The position numbers were made by a program, and so were the translations under genes. This document shows positions 9,691 through 64,000 of a stretch of 64,000 nucleotides of DNA, piece after piece. The notes beneath the pieces are model-generated. The model was not told the DNA's origin and did no database searches. It was given only the letters and a program-made list of their open reading frames with translations. Source of the stretch: Procambarus clarkii (Eukaryota > Arthropoda > Malacostraca > Decapoda > Cambaridae). The stretch is from NCBI RefSeq assembly GCF_040958095.1, contig NC_091193.1, positions 37,855,886 to 37,919,885 on the forward strand. Reading direction: 5' to 3'. Within the stretch, counting starts at the first letter, position 1. Every line of letters begins with the position of its first letter.

Positions 9691-9772
9691 CACCTAGTTG
9701 TATTCACCTTGTTGTGTTTGCGGGGGTTGAGCTTTGCTCTTTCGGCCCGCCTCTCAACTGTCAATCAACTGT
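9689..9772 (-). mobile_element. LINE 3' end, short fragment
   Basis: On the minus strand this reads TTGAGAGGCGGGCCGAAAGA, then GCAAAGCTCAACC and CAACTAGGTGAACAC, leading into (AC)n. The same terminal phrase closes the LINE copies near 60890-60950 and 15890-15960. Only the last ~85 bases are present. Confidence 0.75.
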
Positions 9773-9791: not shown

Positions 9792-9990
9792 ACACCACAC
9801 CACACACACACACACACCCCAGGAAGCAGCCCGTGGCAGCTGACTAACTCTCAGATACCTGTTTACTGCTAGGTAACAGGGGCATTCAGAGTGAAAGAAA
9901 CTTTGCCCATTTGTTCCTGCCTCGCGCGGGAATCGAACCCGCCCCACAGAATTATGAGCCCTGCGCGCTATCCACCAGGCTACGAGGCCC
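9792..9990 (-). mobile_element. tRNA-derived SINE, family B, with (CA)n tail
   Basis: On the minus strand the head contains a box A-like TAGCCTGGTGGATAGCGCGC (9963-9982) and a box B GGTTCGATTCC (about 9929-9940). The body includes AAGTTTCTTTCAC and CTGTTACCTAGCAGTAAACA and ends in CTGCTTCCTGGGGTGTGTG. A poly-purine/CA tail lies at 9792-9818. The same body occurs at 28403-28634. Confidence 0.85.
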
Positions 9991-15884: not shown

Positions 15885-16905
15885 GTGCGTGTACTCACCT
15901 ATTTGTGCTTGCGGAGGTTGGGCTCTGGCTCTTTGGTCCCGGTTCTCAACTGTCAATCAACTGATGTACAAGTTCCTGAGCATGTTGGGCTTTATCATAT
16001 CTACACTTGGAACTGTGTATGGAGTCAGCCTCCACCACATCACTGCCTAATGCATTCCATTTTTCAACAACTCTGACACTAAAAAAAAAAAAAAAACTAA
16101 TATCTCTGTGGCTCATTTGGGCACTCAGTTTCCACCTGTGTCCCCTAGTGTGTGTACCCCTTGTGTTAAATAGCCCGTCTTTTCTTTAAATAGCGTCAAT
16201 TCTGAGAATCTTGTATGTGGTAATCATATCCCCCCTAACTCTTCTGTCTTCTAGCGACGTGAGGTTTAATTCCGGTAGTCTCTCCTCGTAGCTCATGCCT
16301 CTCAGCCTGGGGACTAGTCTGGTGGCAAACCTTTGAACTTTTTCCAGTTTGGTCTTATGATTGACTAGATATGGACTCCATGCTAGGGCTGCATACTCCA
16401 GGATTGGTCTGACATAGGTGGTATACAAAATTCTGAATGATTCCTTGCACAAGTGTCTAAATGCCGTTCTTATGTTAGCCAACCTGGCATATGCTGCTGA
16501 TGTTATCCATTTGACATGGACTTCAGGGGGACAGGTCTGGCGTGATATCAACCCCCCAGGTCTTGCTTTCTTTCTGACTCTTGAGGAATTCCTTCTCCCA
16601 AATGATACCTTGCAACTGGCCTCCTGCTCCTTACACCTATCTTTATTACATTACATTTGCTTGGGTTAAACTTTAACAGCCATTTGTTCGACATTCCTCT
16701 ATTTTGTCTAGGTCTTCTTGAAGCCTCAAGCGATCCTCCTCTGTCTTAATCCTTCTCATAATTTTGGCGTCGTCAGCAATCATTGAGAGGAATGAGTCTT
16801 TACCCTCTGGGAGTTCGTTCACGTATATCAGAAAAAGGATAGGACCGAGTATAGAGCCTTCTGGGACTCCACTGGTGACTTCACGCCAATCTGAGGTCTC
16901 ACCCC
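15885..16905 (-). mobile_element. LINE 3' half: reverse transcriptase core, thumb and 3' end
   Basis: From about 16905 on the minus strand the translation reads [17 protein letters not shown], then [12 protein letters not shown] and a catalytic-type IADDAKI (about 16764-16782). It continues [57 protein letters not shown] and FATRLVPRLRGMSYEERLPE, with a stop near 16186. Frame changes are needed between the Asp-Asp block and the thumb. An A run and the shared terminal block (TTGAGAACCGGGACCAAAGA, then GTGAGTACACG) close it at about 15890. It is 5' truncated and close in sequence to the 60.3-kb copy. The type is CR1/Jockey-like; the clade is not settled. Confidence 0.85.
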
Positions 16906-29012: not shown

Positions 29013-29290
29013 CAACCCATTCTCGCACTTGCTTCAGTCAATATTGGCTTATTTAATAAGTGCATATGTGACATACTAATTGATATTATTACTTAATCTA
29101 TACCGTTGATAGGTTAAGAAATAATTGTAAATAAGATGCTTATCTTAACATACTAAGAAAGTTAGGTGAGGTCAGTGTTTTCTATGAAGCTTTTTCAAGG
29201 TAAACTAAAATATTCACAATCAATTAGTATGTCACATATGCACTTATAAATAAGCCAGTATTGACTAAAAGCAAGTGCGATAACGGGTTG
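29013..29290. mobile_element. MITE-like element with 7-bp target duplication (second)
   Basis: Long terminal inverted repeats of about 75 bases. The left starts CAACCCATTCTCGCACTTGC. The right, on the other strand, starts CAACCCGTTATCGCACTTGC. Both continue through the TAAGTGCATATGTGACATAC block. CACAAGT is repeated directly at 29006-29012 and 29291-29297. The element is 278 bp, non-coding and able to fold into one long hairpin. Confidence 0.9.
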
Positions 29291-29388: not shown

Positions 29389-30345
29389 GTGGTGGATAGG
29401 TTACAATCACATAGTTACTACAAACAGTTAGCAAACAGGAACTTCTTTTCGAAATTTTACAGAAATTTTTTTTACAGGAACTTCTTTTCGACGGCTCATA
29501 AAACGGAGAAAAGGGTCCTGAAAGATATTGTTGATAAGAACGTCATCCCTACAGACAAAAATCAGAAAATGCAATTGAAAATTTACAATAAAACCAAAGA
29601 AACACGGCCAATCTACTCATGAAAAACTCCCCAGACACTAAGCAGAACGCTTTGAAGGAGACCAACGTCGTCTATGTCATTAAATGCCCACTTGCGGACT
29701 GTAAGCCCCAAAGAACTTAGTATATAGGCAAGACAACAGCGTCTCTTTCCAGGCGACTAACAATGCATAAGCAACAGGGCGCCACCAAGGAACATATATT
29801 CTCTTCTCACAACTAGACTATCACCAGAGAAATCTTAACAAACAACACAGAAATCATCACTAGGTACAGCGATGGCAGGCGGCTTGACATCAGCGAGGCA
29901 CTACACATCAAGAAGTCAACACCAGCAATCAACAGCCAATTAATGCACAACTATATTCTTCCCACTTCAATTCATGGTATGGGCCAATAGGCCCTCTGCA
30001 GTTACTTCCATTCTCATGTACCCACCTCACCCAAACCAATAAAAAGGGAGTGATATATAAAATGTTTCATACACAGTTCATCGAGTGTATTATAAATGTT
30101 GTTCATAAGTGTACTGTTATGTATAAAGAAGTCTTTGAGAATGTAAGAAGCCTTACTAAACGCTTCTAAGCGTCAGACCATTAATAAAAAAAGAATTTTG
30201 GAGGATTGATTTTTTACATTACCACCAACAGAGATGAAAAACATCAGAAATATTGAAAAAAAAAATCGTGTTAGAATTATTAATCTTACTTTTTCGGTCA
30301 TATTCAACAGCATATGTTTACAAGAAAGACTGCTACCAAAATATA
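29389..30345 (+). mobile_element. Penelope-like element, 3' part with GIY-YIG endonuclease (broken)
   Basis: The plus strand encodes the end of a PLE protein. The block FFSTAHKTEKRVLKDI with NVIPTDKNQK precedes NSPDTKQNALKETNVVY. Then come the Cys-containing CPLADCK and YIGKT blocks of a GIY-YIG endonuclease, followed by LSRRLTMHKQQG and LDISEALHIKKSTPAINS. PLEs copy themselves with a telomerase-related reverse transcriptase, and this nuclease opens the target. The 3' untranslated part holds a small hairpin (ACGCTTCTAAGCGT) near 30160 and ends ATTAATCTTACTTTTTCGGT just before a (TA)n tract. The copy is 5' truncated and its frame is broken. Confidence 0.8.
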
Positions 30346-30348
30346 CTA

Positions 30349-30349
<1 letters not shown>

Positions 30350-30426
<77 letters not shown>

Positions 30427-30463
30427 TATATATTATATATATATATTATATATATATATATAT
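30350..30463. repeat. (TA)n microsatellite
   Basis: Long TA tract with a few TATTATA interruptions at its right side. It lies between the PLE end and a TTAGG-bearing inverted-repeat element. Confidence 0.95.
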
Positions 30464-30771
30464 GTCGTACCTAGTAGCCAGAACGCACTTGTCAGCCTAC
30501 TATGCCAGGCCCGATTTGCCTAATAAGCCAAGTTTTCATGAATTAATTGTTTTTCGTCTACCTAACCTACCTAACCTAACCTAACCTAACTTTTTCGGCC
30601 ACTTAAGCTAACCTAACCTATGAAGATAGGTTAGGTTAGGTTAGGTAGGGTTGGTTAGGTTCGGTCATATAACTATGTTAATTTTATCTCCAATAAAAAG
30701 AAATTGACCTCATACATAATGAAATGGGTAGCTTTATCATTTCATAAGAAAAAAATTAGAGAAAATATATT
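30464..30771 (+). mobile_element. TTAGG-bearing inverted-repeat element, copy 1 (right end lost)
   Basis: Starts GTCGTACCTAGTAGCC like the full copy at 58719-59112. It contains CCTAACCTAACCTAACCTAA followed after a short gap by TTAGGTTAGGTTAGGTAGGG, and the TTTCATAAGAAAAAAATTAG block. It breaks off at GAAAATATATT, where a SINE follows. Confidence 0.9.
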
Positions 30772-30790
30772 GAAAGAAAGAAAGTGAGAA

Positions 30791-30932
30791 AGTGTCTGAG
30801 TTGTGGTGCAGTGGGTTAAAGGCATACCAGTTATGCCAGTTGCTGTAAGGCTTCTGTGCTGGCTAGGGTTCGAATCTCCTGGTGGGAAAGTGTTCTAAGG
30901 TTGTATAACTTCTCTTGCGTGTTTAGGCAAGT

Positions 30933-30935
<3 letters not shown>
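30791..30935 (+). mobile_element. tRNA-derived SINE, family C
   Basis: Box A TTGTGGTGCAGTGGGTTAAA (30801-30820) and box B GGTTCGAATCT (30867-30877) lie at normal polymerase III spacing. The body CTGGTGGGAAAGTGTTCTAA follows, with a short tail before a (TA)n tract. It sits exactly where the preceding element is truncated. Confidence 0.8.

Positions 30936-31000
<65 letters not shown>
30936..31000. repeat. (TA)n microsatellite
   Basis: About 32 TA units. Confidence 0.97.
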
Positions 31001-54627: not shown

Positions 54628-57600
54628 AGTAGCTGCTGTGTTTGGTACTAGTAGCTGCTGTGTTGGTACTTGTAGCTGCTGCGTTGGTACTTGTAGCTGC
54701 TGTGTTGGTACTTGTAGCTGCTGCGTTGGTACTTGTAGCTGCTGTGTTGGTACTTGTAGCTGCTGTGTTTGGTACTAGTAGCTGCTGTGTTGGTACTTGT
54801 AGCTGCTGCGTTGGTACTTGTAGCTGCTGTGTTGGTACTTGTAGCTGCTGTGTTTGGTACTAGTAGCTGCTGTGTTGGTACTTGTAGCTGCTGCGTTGGT
54901 ACTTGTAGCTGCTGTGTTGGTACTAGTACCTGCTGTGTTGGTACTAGTAGCTGCTGTGTTGGTACTAGTAGCTGCTGCGTTGGTACTAGTAGCTGCTGTG
55001 TTGGTACTTGTAGCTGCTGCGTTGGTACTTGTAGCTGCTGTGTTGGTACTAGTAGCTGCTGTGTTGGTACTTGTAGCTGCTGTGTTTGGTACTAGTAGCT
55101 GCTGTGTTGGTACTTGTAGCTGCTGCGTTGGTACTTGTAGCTGCTGTGTTGGTACTAGTACCTGCTGTGTTGGTACTAGTAGCTGCTGTGTTGGTACTAG
55201 TAGCTGCTGCGTTGGTACTAGTAGCTGCTGTGTTGGTACTTGTAGCTGCTGCGTTGGTACTTGTAGCTGCTGTGTTGGTACTAGTAGCTGCTGTGTTGGT
55301 ACTTGTAGCTGCTGTGTTTGGTACTAGTAGCTGCTGTGTTGGTACTAGTAGCTGCTGTGTTGTTACTTGTAGCTGCTGTGTTGGTACTTGTAGCTGCTGT
55401 GTTGGTACTTGTAGCTGCTGTGTTGTTACTTGTAGCTGCTGTGTTGGTACTTGTAGCTGCTGTGTTGGTACTAGTAGCTGCTGTGTTGTTACTTGTAGCT
55501 GCTGTGTTTGGTACTAGTAGCTGCTGTGTTGGTACTTGTAGCTGCTGTGTTGGTACTAGTAGCTGCTGTGTTGTTACTTGTAGCTGCTGTGTTGGTACTA
55601 GTAGCTGCTGTGTTGTTACTTGTAGCTGCTGCGTTGGTACTTGTAGCTGCTGTGTTGGTACTTGTAGCTGCTGTGTTGGTACTAGTAGCTGCTGTGTTGG
55701 TACTAGTAGCTGCTGTGTTGTTACTTGTAGCTGCTGTGTTTGGTACTTGTAGCTGCTGTGTTTGGTACTAGTAGCTGCTGTGTTGGTACTTGTAGCTGCT
55801 GTGTTGGTACTAGTAGCTGCTGTGTTGGTACTTGTAGCTGCTGTGTTGTTACTTGTAGCTGCTGTGTTGGTACTTGTAGCTGCTGTGTTGGTACTAGTAG
55901 CTGCTGTGTTGGTACTAGTAGCTGCTGTGTTGGTACTTGTAGCTGCTGTGTTGTTACTTGTAGCTGCTGTGTTGGTACTAGTAGCTGCTGTGTTGGTACT
56001 TGTAGCTGCTGTGTTTGTACTAGTAGCTGCTGTGTTGGTACTTGTAGCTGCTGTGTTGGTACTTGTAGCTGCTGTGTTGGTACTTGTAGCTGCTGTGTTG
56101 GTACTAGTAGCTGCTGTGTTGGTACTTGTAGCTGCTGTGTTGGTACTTGTAGCTGCTGTGTTGTTACTTGTAGCTGCTGTGTTGGTACTAGTAGCTGCTG
56201 TGTTGGTACTTGTAGCTGCTGTGTTGGTACTTGTAGCTGCTGTGTTGGTACTAGTAGCTGCTGTGTTGGTACTTGTAGCTGCTGTGTTGGTACTTGTAGC
56301 TGCTGTGTTGGTACTAGTAGCTGCTGTGTTGTTACTTGTAGCTGCTGTGTTGGTACTTGTAGCTGCTGTGTTGTTACTTGTAGCTGCTGTGTTGGTACTT
56401 GTAGCTGCTGTGTTGTTACTTGTAGCTGCTGTGTTGGTACTAGTAGCTGCTGTGTTGGTACTAGTAGCTGCAGTGTTGGTACTTGTAGCTGCTGTGTTGG
56501 TACTAGTAGCTGCTGTGTTGGTACTTGTAGCTGCTGTGTTGGTACTAGTAGCTGCTGTGTTGGTACTAGTAGCTGCTGTATTGGTACTTGTAGCTGCTGT
56601 GTTGGTACTTGTAGCTGCTGTGTTGGTACTTGTAGTTGCTGTGTTGGTACTTGTAGCTGCTGTGTTGGTACTAGTAGCTGCTGTGTTGGTACTTGTAGCT
56701 GCTGTGTTGGTACTAGTAGCTGCTGTGTTGGTACTTGTAGCTGCTGTGTTGGTACTAGTAGCTGCTGTGTTGGTACTAGTAGCTGCTGTATTGGTACTTG
56801 TAGCTGCTGTGTTGGTACTAGTAGCTGCTGTGTTGGTACTTGTAGCTGCTGTGTTGGTACTAGTAGCTGCTGTGTTGGTACTTGTAGCTGCTGTGTTGGT
56901 ACTTGTAGCTGCTGTGTTGGTACTAGTAGCTGCTGTGTTGGTACTTGTAGCTGCTGTGTTGGTACTTGTAGCTGCTGTGTTGGTACTAGTAGCTGTTGTG
57001 TTGGTACTTGTAGCTGCTGTGTTGGTACTTGTAGCTGCTGTGTTGTTGCTTGTAGCTGCTGTGTTGGTACTTGTAGCTGCTGTGTTGGTACTAGTAGCTG
57101 CTGTGTTGGTACTTGTAGCTGCTGTGTTGTTACTTGTAGCTGCTGTGTTGGTACTTGTAGCTGCTGTGTTGTTACTTGTAGCTGCTGTGTTGGTACTTGT
57201 AGCTGCTGTGTTGGTACTAGTAGCTGCTGTGTTGGTACTTGTAGCTGCTGTGTTGGTACTAGTAGCTGCTGTGTTGGTACTTGTAGCTGCTGTGTTGGTA
57301 CTTGTAGCTGCTGTGTTGTTACTTGTAGCTGCTGTGTTGGTACTAGTAGCTGCTGTGTTGGTACTAGTAGTTGCTGTGTTGGTACTAGTAGCTGCTGTGT
57401 TGGTACTTGTAGCTGCTGTGTTGGTACTTGTAGCTGCTGTGTTGGTACTTGTAGCTGCTGTGTTTGTACTAGTAGCTGCTGTGTTGGTACTTGTAGCTGC
57501 TGTGTTGGTACTAGTAGCTGCTGTGTTGGTACTTGTAGCTGCTGTGTTGGTACTTGTAGCTGCTGTGTTTGTACTAGTAGCTGCTGTGTTGGTACTTGTA

Positions 57601-58463
57601 GCTGCTGTGTTGGTACTTGTAGCTGCTGTGTTGGTACTTGTAGCTGCTGTGTTGGTACTTGTAGCTGCTGTGTTTGTACTAGTAGCTGCTGTGTTGGTAC
57701 TTGTAGCTGCTGTGTTGGTACTTGTAGCTGCTGTGTTGTTACTTGTAGCTGCTGTGTTTGTACTAGTAGCTGCTGTGTTGGTACTTGTAGCTGCTGTGTT
57801 GGTACTAGTAGCTGCTCTGTTGGTACTTGTAGCTGCTGTGTTGGTACTAGTAGCTGCTGTGTTGGTACTAGTAGCTGCTGTGTTGGTACTTGTAGCTGCT
57901 GTGTTTGTACTAGTAGCTGCTGTGTTGGTACTTGTAGCTGCTGTGTTGGTACTAGTAGCTGCTGTGTTGGTACTTGTAGCTGCTGTGTTTGTACTAGTAG
58001 CTGCTGTGTTGGTACTTGTAGCTGCTGTGTTGGTACTAGTAGCTGCTGTGTTGGTACTTGTAGCTGCTGTGTTGGTACTAGTAGCTGCTGTGTTGGTACT
58101 AGTAGCTGCTGTGTTGGTACTTGTAGCTGCTGTGTTTGTACTAGTAGCTGCTGTGTTGGTACTTGTAGCTGCTGTGTTGGTACTAGTAGCTGCTGTGTTG
58201 GTACTTGTAGCTGCTGTGTTTGTACTAGTAGCTGCTGTGTTGGTACTTGTAGCTGCTGTGTTGGTACTAGTAGCTGCTGTGTTGGTACTTGTAGCTGCTG
58301 TGTTTGTACTAGTAGCTGCTGTGTTGGTACTTGTAGCTGCTGTGTTGTTACTTGTAGCTGCTGTGTTTGTACTAGTAGCTGCTGTGTTGGTACTTGTAGC
58401 TGCTGTGTTGGTACTAGTAGCTGCTGTGTTGGTACTTGTAGCTGCTGTGTTTGTACTAGTAGC
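54628..58463. repeat. Minisatellite, 21-bp unit, about 183 copies
   Basis: The unit is GTAGCTGCTGTGTTGGTACT plus T or A (CTTGTAGC or CTAGTAGC). A GTTTGGTAC variant adds one base. In the left part these variants recur every 232 bases (54854, 55086, 55318), giving a higher-order repeat of eleven units plus one base. From 55762 on the register is steady to the end. Two overlapping open frames of more than 900 codons (CSCCVGT and VLVLVAA repeats) are by-products of a stop-free 21-bp unit. Confidence 0.97.
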
Positions 58464-58630
58464 TCTTCAGAGGTTGCATGGCGTTTTTTTTTCAGGTGAC
58501 CTTCTTTTGTGTCTCGAGGTCGAATATGTCGTCCAACAGGATCTCCAACTCCACTTTCCGGGCCATCTCACTTGGTCTGGACATAACGTGACAGTTTATA
58601 CCCAGATTTAGGAGAGTGACTTGGTCCTCA

Positions 58631-58632
<2 letters not shown>
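58464..58632. other. No gene seen
   Basis: Unique spacer before a TA tract. Confidence 0.4.

Positions 58633-58718
<86 letters not shown>
58633..58718. repeat. (TA)n microsatellite
   Basis: About 43 TA units flanking the left end of the inverted-repeat element. Confidence 0.97.
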
Positions 58719-60053
<1,335 letters not shown>

Positions 60054-60186
60054 ATCGCGTCAGACTAGAAATAAAAATGAATTTTGGAGAATTGATTTTT
60101 CAATTACCATCAACAGAGTGAAGAAAAATAAGAAATATTGAGAAAATTCGTGTTTGAATTCTTAATCTTACCTTTTTGGTCATATT
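60054..60186 (+). mobile_element. PLE 3' terminal fragment in opposite orientation
   Basis: Reads GTCAGACTAGAAATAAAAAT, then TTTTGGAGAATTGATTTTTC, AAGAAATATTGAGAAAATTC and TCTTAATCTTACCTTTTTGG. This is the reverse complement of the terminal ~135 bases of the adjoining minus-strand PLE (59212-59350). It abuts the point where that PLE is truncated, so the pair is arranged as an inverted repeat around the endonuclease region. Confidence 0.8.
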
Positions 60187-60202
60187 TAACCACACACTCA
60201 CA

Positions 60203-60257
<55 letters not shown>
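60187..60257. repeat. (CA)n microsatellite
   Basis: About 33 CA units with minor interruptions at the left. It directly precedes the truncated LINE. Confidence 0.95.
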
Positions 60258-61089
<832 letters not shown>

Positions 61090-62945: not shown

Positions 62946-62994
62946 TCAGAAGACATGAAGAATATTGTAAATCATATGAATACAACCATTACAA

Positions 62995-63800
62995 CTAGTT
63001 CATCTTGTCACGACAGTGGCAAGTTATTTATGCACGGAAAAAATCTTACTGATGACTTACTCATGAACGCACTCAATTTGAACACTCACAGCTCAGGATG
63101 GAAGCAAGTCGATGAAGGACTCTGTAGGGTTAGGCAGGTACTAGTCAACAACGGCTTCTCTAAAGCTTATGTTGAAGACGTGCTTAAAAGAAAGATGAAA
63201 CGCCATGCAACCTCTGAAGAGTCAACTAACACAACATTTGTATCTCCAATTAAGCTGTTGTACAGGAACTTCTTTTCGACGGGTCATAAAACGGAGGAAA
63301 GTGTCCTGAAATATATTATTAATAGGAACGTTATCCCCACAGACACAAATCAGAAGACAAAATTGACAATTTAGTACAAAAACAAGAAAACGGCCAAACT
63401 ACTCATGAAGAATTCTCCAGACACCAAACAGAACGCCTTGAAAGAAACCAACATCGTCTATGCTTTCACATGCCCACTTGGGGACTGTCAGCCCCAAAGA
63501 ACTCAGTATATAGGCAAGACAACAACATCCATTTCCAGGCGATTAACAATGCACAAACAACAGGGCTCCCTTAAGGAATGTAATATCTCCTCACACAACC
63601 AGACCATCACCAGACCAACAAGCAACACAGAAATTATCGACAGATACAGCGATAGCAGGAGAGTCGACATCAGCGAGGCACTACACATCAAAAAGTCAAC
63701 ACCAGCAGTCAACAGCTAATTAACACATTATTATATTATACCCACTTCATGACCCCGAACCAACACAGACATAAGAAGAGAAAATACGCAATGTACCCAT
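62995..63800 (+). mobile_element. Penelope-like element, 3' part with GIY-YIG endonuclease (broken)
   Basis: The longest PLE piece. After the thumb-like block SGWKQVDEGLCRVRQVL and NNGFSKAYVEDVLKRKMKRH come FFSTGHKTEESVLKYI, NVIPTDTNQK and NSPDTKQNALKETNIVYAF. The endonuclease CPLGDCQ, YIGKTTTSISRRLTMHKQQG and NTEIIDRYSDSRRVDISEAL follow. It lacks most of the reverse transcriptase and its frame is broken. The 3' side is short and runs into a (TA)n tract. Confidence 0.85.
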
Positions 63801-63809
63801 TGATTTGTG

Positions 63810-63811
<2 letters not shown>

Positions 63812-63887
<76 letters not shown>
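63812..63887. repeat. (TA)n microsatellite
   Basis: About 38 TA units between the PLE and the last inverted-repeat element. Confidence 0.97.
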
Positions 63888-63890
<3 letters not shown>

Positions 63891-64000
63891 GTACCTAGTA
63901 GCCAGAACGCACTTTTTGGCCTACTATGCAAGGCCCGATTTGCCTAATAAGCCAAGTTTTCCTGAATTAATATATTTTCTCTAATTTTTTTCTTATGAAA
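63888..64000 (-). mobile_element. TTAGG-bearing inverted-repeat element, copy 3 (cut by window end)
   Basis: Starts GTCGTACCTAGTAGCC. After the terminal repeat it runs into TATATTTTCTCTAATTTTTT then CTTATGAAA, the reverse complement of the right half of the full copy, so it is inserted in the opposite orientation. The telomere-like core lies beyond the window. Confidence 0.85.

Follow-up and report, generated by a model that had tools for sequence, protein, structure and literature searches.

Several plant MITEs are known that target microsatellites, among them the SaTar elements of guayule and rice, which include Micron (PMC5907723), MuTAnT of Medicago (PMC4486113), and Ac-mMITE of pineapple (PMC8449440). 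As far as the accessible portions of these reports go, 32% of 215 guayule elements are linked to one another through microsatellites (PMC5907723), and 46.1% of the full-length mMITE copies of pineapple are clustered (PMC8449440). For Penelope-like elements (PLEs), the available text on Adineta describes Penelope copies with a C-terminal GIY-YIG domain and with pLTRs that have an adjacent inverted copy, one of which can carry an optional 31-bp tail (PMC3846280). The excerpted report on Anolis states that purified Poseidon protein and a Penelope endonuclease prefer AT-rich DNA (PMC11167929). In penaeid shrimp, the accessible sections of a genome study place TEs generally beside SSRs, describe Penelope in L. 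vannamei with more long than short (AT)n, and close by asking how simple repeats come to be carried by TEs (PMC7878876).

Here we analyze a window, the whole stretch of 64,000 nucleotides of Procambarus clarkii DNA under study, in which PLE 3' parts, (TA)n tracts and a short inverted-repeat element recur side by side. Collectively, the data make it very probable that long (TA)n tracts are shared landing sites, and that a MITE and a PLE each insert independently into tracts that already exist.

As far as the plant elements are described in the sources cited above, the short element resembles them in being a short non-autonomous TIR or foldback element with (TA)n on both sides and in forming microsatellite-joined arrays, and it shares a high copy number with pineapple Ac-mMITE. 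It differs from them in its animal host, in its 84-bp TIRs starting GTCGTACC, in its TTAGG-type hairpin and in the sites that it shares with a PLE. Among the features that define microsatellite MITEs, we find here a short non-coding TIR element, (TA)n at its ends, related empty sites (in one host family) and modular arrays. A Mutator-type transposase relative, or 9-10 bp target duplications outside microsatellites, also belongs to the profile of this class; the likeness here is one of TIRs, TA flanks, empty sites and arrays alone.

The PLE, in turn, is like Adineta Penelope as excerpted (PMC3846280) in its inverted pLTR (60052-60194 versus 59212-59354) and in the tail found at exactly one end in eight of nine pairs of ends. 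Unlike the Adineta and Anolis elements, in so far as the available descriptions cover them, it occupies TA-microsatellite sites nearly exclusively (29/30 ends), which goes beyond a general preference for AT-rich DNA. The shrimp study, in its accessible part, sees TEs as vehicles by which repeats are spread (PMC7878876), whereas here unfilled sites show TEs entering existing TA.

Literature searches with MITE sequence words and for PLEs with dinucleotide targets gave nothing closer among the matches listed, and no paper with six MITE sequence words was found. For TA-targeting MITEs, the titles naming such elements were all on plants among the matches listed, which does not prove absence from print. 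Chlamys PLEs reportedly target (CA)n; theirs would also be a dinucleotide-repeat target, in another clade and with another repeat. An animal MITE family with tens of thousands of termini and with sites shared with a PLE would widen a kind of element known from plants. The arrangement is also directly testable, as one genome offers the same TA tract both with and without insertions.

Three loci with the same order of elements

The preliminary description of the window proposed that a PLE 3' part is followed by (TA)n and then by the inverted-repeat element. This order is borne out at 29437-30771 (+), from 60050 to 58719 (-) and at 62994-64000 (+), here loci A, B and C (Table 1). As it also held, three copies of the short element are involved, the number of MITE copies that blastn gives for the window, and their orientation relative to the PLE, the same by blastn, is forward at A and reversed at both B and C. 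Not all PLE ends of the window take part, as had been thought: a fourth, inverted end at 60052-60194 meets (CA)n and is without a MITE.

Table 1. Features of the three loci and their surroundings (window coordinates)
Feature	Position	Strand	Basis
PLE copy A, 5'-truncated: C-terminal coding remnant and 3' UTR	29437..30312	+	blastn to copies B and C; tblastn; alignment
Tail extension of PLE A, GACTGCTACCAAAATATACTAA type	30313..30348	+	like the tail before TA in 13/30 genomic PLE ends
(TA)n, PLE A to MITE A	30349..30463	.	TRF
MITE copy A, without right arm	30464..30771	+	93% to copy B, 313 columns
SINE-like, box A and box B-like motifs; leads into TA tract 30938-31000	30785..30937	+	by eye
Probable fragment of a second PLE, far side of locus B TA tract	58465..58630	-	58486-58451 versus PLE C
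(TA)n left of MITE B	58632..58718	.	TRF
MITE copy B, complete: 84-bp TIRs, internal AACCT/AGGTT hairpin	58719..59112	+	alignment; DNA fold z=-21
Telomere-type pentamer inverted repeat within MITE B	58813..58925	.	TRF, alignment
(TA)n, MITE B to PLE B	59113..59210	.	TRF
PLE copy B: GIY-YIG-like coding remnant, 3' UTR, pLTR end without tail	59211..60050	-	Pfam, alignments
Inverted pLTR (fourth PLE end), into (CA)n, no MITE	60052..60194	+	87% to 59212-59354
Comparison TA tract without MITE, behind LINE-like 3' end and (CA)n	60979..61087	.	TRF
PLE copy C, ends within UTR	62994..63810	+	blastn, alignment
(TA)n, PLE C to MITE C	63811..63887	.	TRF
MITE copy C, cut by window end	63888..64000	-	93% to copy B, 113 columns

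The earlier count of three PLE ends at these loci stands for two of them. Copies A and B, both 5'-truncated, have true PLE ends; in A, the UTR is separated from the TA by 36 bases that are the tail seen in other genomic copies of the PLE, which is what makes A a true end. Copy C stops about 90 nt past the stop codon, inside what is UTR in A and B, and thus does not have the same PLE end as these two; its last 18 aligned bases have moderate support (5 of 1000 shuffles score as well). Similarity to the GIY-YIG domain (Pfam PF01541) was detected in copy B (E 8e-4, 20.1 bits) and copy C (E 1.5e-3, 19.2 bits), in both cases below the curated cutoff of 22.6. A hammerhead ribozyme in the PLE was looked for with Rfam: the window has no match at gathering level, and the listing for 58450-60260, which extends to E 5, contains none. 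The miRNA-type Rfam matches in this interval track the hairpin and the TA tracts, far below the cutoff, and were set aside. A search of viral contigs for a relative of the PLE found none.

On the far side of the TA tract at locus B, 58465-58630 is probably a piece of a second PLE, judging by a single short blastn match to PLE C (58486-58451; 37 columns at 89%, E 6e-7). Its LNLG motif is presumably PLE-like, and a 44-aa piece of it has no Pfam match. Directly adjoining it is a 21-bp minisatellite array (54629-58486), with a reading frame that is open over the junction; by eye, the other end of the array holds no recognizable PLE sequence. At locus A, the MITE has lost its right arm and runs on into a SINE-like element, for which neither Rfam nor ARAGORN gives a tRNA call.

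In all three cases the PLE part stops no more than 50 bp from a TA tract, compared with a probability of 0.011 each for a random end in the 29.5 kb outside tandem arrays. TA loci of at least 60 bp number five in the window, with MITEs in the three beside a PLE and in none of the other two (p=0.1), so that the window alone is uninformative about the presence of a MITE given TA.

The short element is a foldback MITE

The MITE has a non-coding consensus of 389 bp, with near-identical 84-bp TIRs and an internal AACCT/AGGTT hairpin. Folded as single-stranded DNA, the 394 nt of copy B lie well beyond 100 shuffles (z=-21). From 1457 first-look candidates, 40 were scored and 30 loci were fetched. The 29 correctly oriented, best-matching full copies, which do not include L021, differ from the consensus by 1-4%, a range that leans young because these are the top-scoring copies. 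A 27-base TIR end has 81,883 exact occurrences in its own genome (4.03 Gb, 2308 contigs), and its reversed control has 0. Outside this genome, a MITE 20-mer had no exact match in viral or prokaryote contigs, the TTAGG hairpin pattern had no match in viral contigs, and there was no plasmid match and no solved-structure match below E 0.5.

The TTAGG content had been called notable in the preliminary description for its bearing on telomeres. With 11-15 TTAGG/CCTAA units in each of 31 MITE copies, the element could be tied to telomeres or to a telomerase-related function of the PLE. However, the units are short, inverted and internal to an element whose TIR end word is found at the frequency just given. 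The PLE likewise has a GIY-YIG-like domain, below the curated cutoff, and the 20-mer just before its end has 55,718 exact occurrences genome-wide (reversed control, 0). Dispersal is plain among the 100 PLE-end places listed, which lie on one contig between 0.38 and 10.6 Mb. A telomere-associated, endonuclease-deficient kind of PLE has no GIY-YIG, and the similarity to GIY-YIG seen here, below the cutoff as it is, points against this kind. As judged from sequence, a telomere link of the MITE or the PLE is not supported, and we regard it as extremely unlikely. The case serves as a warning that TTAGG motifs can sit in very many dispersed short elements of such genomes.

PLE ends and MITE termini are bounded by TA

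For the PLE, we took the first 30 places on one contig that carry the 20-mer, which ends before any TA and is therefore blind to it. TA follows at 29 of these 30 ends, in 28 cases over 44 bp or more and in one over 15 bp; the remaining end (L086) has a short interrupted tract only. Near-duplicate loci, for example L062 and L064, put the independent number below 30. The tail precedes the TA at 13 of the 30 ends, as it does at locus A, and locus B is without it. Of the 29, the far side of the TA was readable at 28, of which 8 lead to a MITE, 1 to a further PLE end and 19 to other sequence. When MITE-chosen loci are taken together with the window, 14 of 15 PLE ends have TA, followed by a MITE in 8; the lone exception is the window's inverted end. 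Nine pairs of PLE ends face outward at most 4 kb apart, two of which are near-duplicates of others. TA is present at both ends in eight of the nine, and a tail stands at exactly one end in eight. PLE parts also occur as head-to-head inverted pairs in L008 and L028, with a PLE-TA-PLE junction in L008.

MITE termini were collected from 60 MITE-centered loci, of which 30 are the best matches and 30 the first places on one contig with an exact TIR end. A terminus was read if at least 150 bp lay beyond it, and identical flanks were dropped. Nearly all of the 204 distinct intact termini adjoin TA: 201 have at least 12 bp of it and 188 at least 20 bp, and the remaining three have 10, 9 and 5 bases. 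The commonest neighbor across the TA is another MITE (115 termini), followed by a PLE end (11) and a LINE-like end (1); the other 77 face other sequence, a class that includes recurrent families. Exact TIR ends face another such end within 300 bp in 28 of 100 cases. A repeat with a spacing of ~260 bp and a box B-like motif was seen in L021, L053, L058 and other loci, and some of its copies end in TA and then a MITE. Both the PLE and the MITE are thus bounded by TA in these samples, which combine best-scoring copies with the start of one contig and include near-duplicate loci.

The two families insert independently of each other

The identical order at the three window loci would be expected if PLE end, TA and MITE formed one composite mobile unit. 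Yet their orientation is mixed, the PLE ends are unlike (C lies mid-UTR), TA and then a MITE follow at only 8 of 30 PLE ends, and a PLE end lies opposite only 11 of 204 MITE termini. Between loci A and B, moreover, the MITE differs by 5.5% (17/308), under half the divergence of the PLE, which is 12.2% in the coding part (47/385; Fisher p=0.002) and 17.4% in the UTR (31/178; p=5e-5). Between B and C, the differences (8/113 in the MITE versus 50/376 in the PLE) run in the same direction and are not significant (p=0.096). Neither equal divergence nor constant order and orientation is seen; on divergence, orientation and counts together we reject a composite for the family as a whole and allow it practically no chance. 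These results agree with the earlier judgment that a fixed composite is less likely than repeated insertion.

The two families are neighbors far more often than random placement would make them. Much as the preliminary description had proposed, we counted neighbors over the initial 7.3 Mb of one contig, for which the exact-match lists of both families (100 TIR ends, 48 PLE ends) are complete. A TIR end lies opposite 4 of the 48 PLE ends at a distance of 300 bp or less; 2000 circular shifts gave 0.10 on average and 2 at most. When the distance is widened to 5 kb, 12 of 48 PLE ends are near a TIR end versus a mean of 1.2; as the over-representation extends to this distance, part of the proximity is regional.

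One reading of this excess, which none of the 2000 shifts reaches, is that a TA tract attracts the MITE more strongly when it lies at a PLE end, as it might through a shared tethering factor. The MITE-chosen loci, where PLE-ended sides face a MITE in 2/4 and 7/12 cases, lean the same way, though they were picked for holding a MITE and so offer no fair test of a preference for the PLE. Once TA is considered, however, the excess vanishes. We compared 55 TA tracts of at least 24 bp in the 30 PLE-chosen loci, all of them more than 90 bp away from the ends of their locus. A MITE lies opposite 9 of 28 PLE-ended sides versus 14 of 56 sides of tracts without a PLE (Fisher p=0.60); counted by tract, MITEs occupy 9 of 27 PLE-ended tracts versus 11 of 28 others (p=0.78). 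PLE ends with TA and without a MITE, which the preliminary description had suggested looking for, do exist.

The claim that insertion favors TA tracts at PLE ends is therefore not upheld. Equal occupancy, together with another MITE as the commonest neighbor, is in this sample the outcome that had been named beforehand as speaking against a special association. A PLE-specific attraction of the MITE is not supported by the PLE-chosen sample, which is small, so that a weak preference may remain; overall we consider such a preference very unlikely. Adjacency of two TE families, in other words, need not imply a functional link.

The same host TA tract occurs filled and unfilled

We clustered the flanks of 212 TA tracts, in which X0 denotes a large single-linkage cluster of 63 flanks. 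The host repeat X3-(TA)n-X0 is present without an insertion in L035, L036, L066 and L080 (TA of 76-133 bp). It also occurs with a pair of PLE ends about 1.5 kb apart in L078 and L079 (TA of 74 and 84 bp; the PLE is assigned from its two ends), and with two MITEs in L042 (TA of 16 and 135 bp). Both host flanks, X3 and X0, are retained in every unfilled and filled copy. As the same host tract is unfilled in some copies and filled in others, the TA was there beforehand and both families entered it, which bears out the earlier proposal of repeated insertion into TA tracts.

This two-sided comparison comprises one host repeat family, one PLE and one MITE array; the other cases are one-sided. Among these, X3 adjoins a MITE in L043 and in L036, where the locus seems to duplicate the L042 region; in L080 it adjoins a PLE. 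Another host repeat (X2-TA-X1) is represented by 5 unfilled copies, 7 with a one-sided MITE and 1 with a one-sided PLE.

The TA could instead originate from the PLE itself, which would make the tract as a 3' tail by slippage at its TA-rich end, with the MITE landing afterwards; PLEs that grow TA tracts would then create sites for the MITE. TA at 29 of 30 PLE ends fits this origin, and the PLE end is itself TA-rich (ATATTTAATAATATAT), so that some of the TA could still be slippage-grown. According to the accessible part of the shrimp genome study, recently expanded Penelope copies likewise contain long (AT)n in one of the two species (PMC7878876). But TA is present at both ends of eight of the nine PLE end pairs, one pair occupies a host TA tract which four other copies of the repeat have unfilled, and MITEs are as frequent in TA tracts without a PLE. 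We therefore think a PLE-made origin of the tracts unlikely, with the qualification that the readings weighed here exclude neither one another nor insertion into shared, pre-existing TA.

Under insertion into shared TA, some long (TA)n microsatellites would be built into other repeat families of the genome, and the 389-bp foldback MITE and the PLE would enter these tracts each by itself. A putative transposase acting in trans may move the MITE by cutting inside the TA, which would make its target-site duplication invisible; such a duplication is indeed unreadable inside TA. The GIY-YIG nuclease of the PLE, for its part, may nick the AT-rich tract, and reverse transcription would begin there. 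Every insertion would leave TA on both sides, making the site reusable, and chains such as PLE-TA-MITE-TA-MITE could accumulate. The PLE-TA-MITE order in the window would then be one frequent outcome of shared TA docking. A more far-reaching idea, which we find conceivable and on balance somewhat doubtful, is that TA microsatellites are self-renewing hubs at which a TA-targeting retroelement and a mechanistically unrelated DNA element grow chains. PLE ends might in that case seed TA, with transposition and microsatellite growth feeding each other.

Other repeats of the window

Further repeats lie near these loci and elsewhere in the window. Three 3' parts, at 60258-60948, 15893-16588 (-) and 9704-9769 (-), which we take to be LINE-like, are mutually related by blastn and have no Pfam match. 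Two of them enter long (CA)n, and the third enters a short CA-rich stretch. Upstream of PLE A, 29013-29290 forms a second inverted-repeat element, with arms of 22, 23 and 32 nt in register (29013-29084 / 29219-29290). Finally, both Rfam and ARAGORN identify a tRNA-Met-like sequence at 9918-9988 (-), possibly the head of a SINE.
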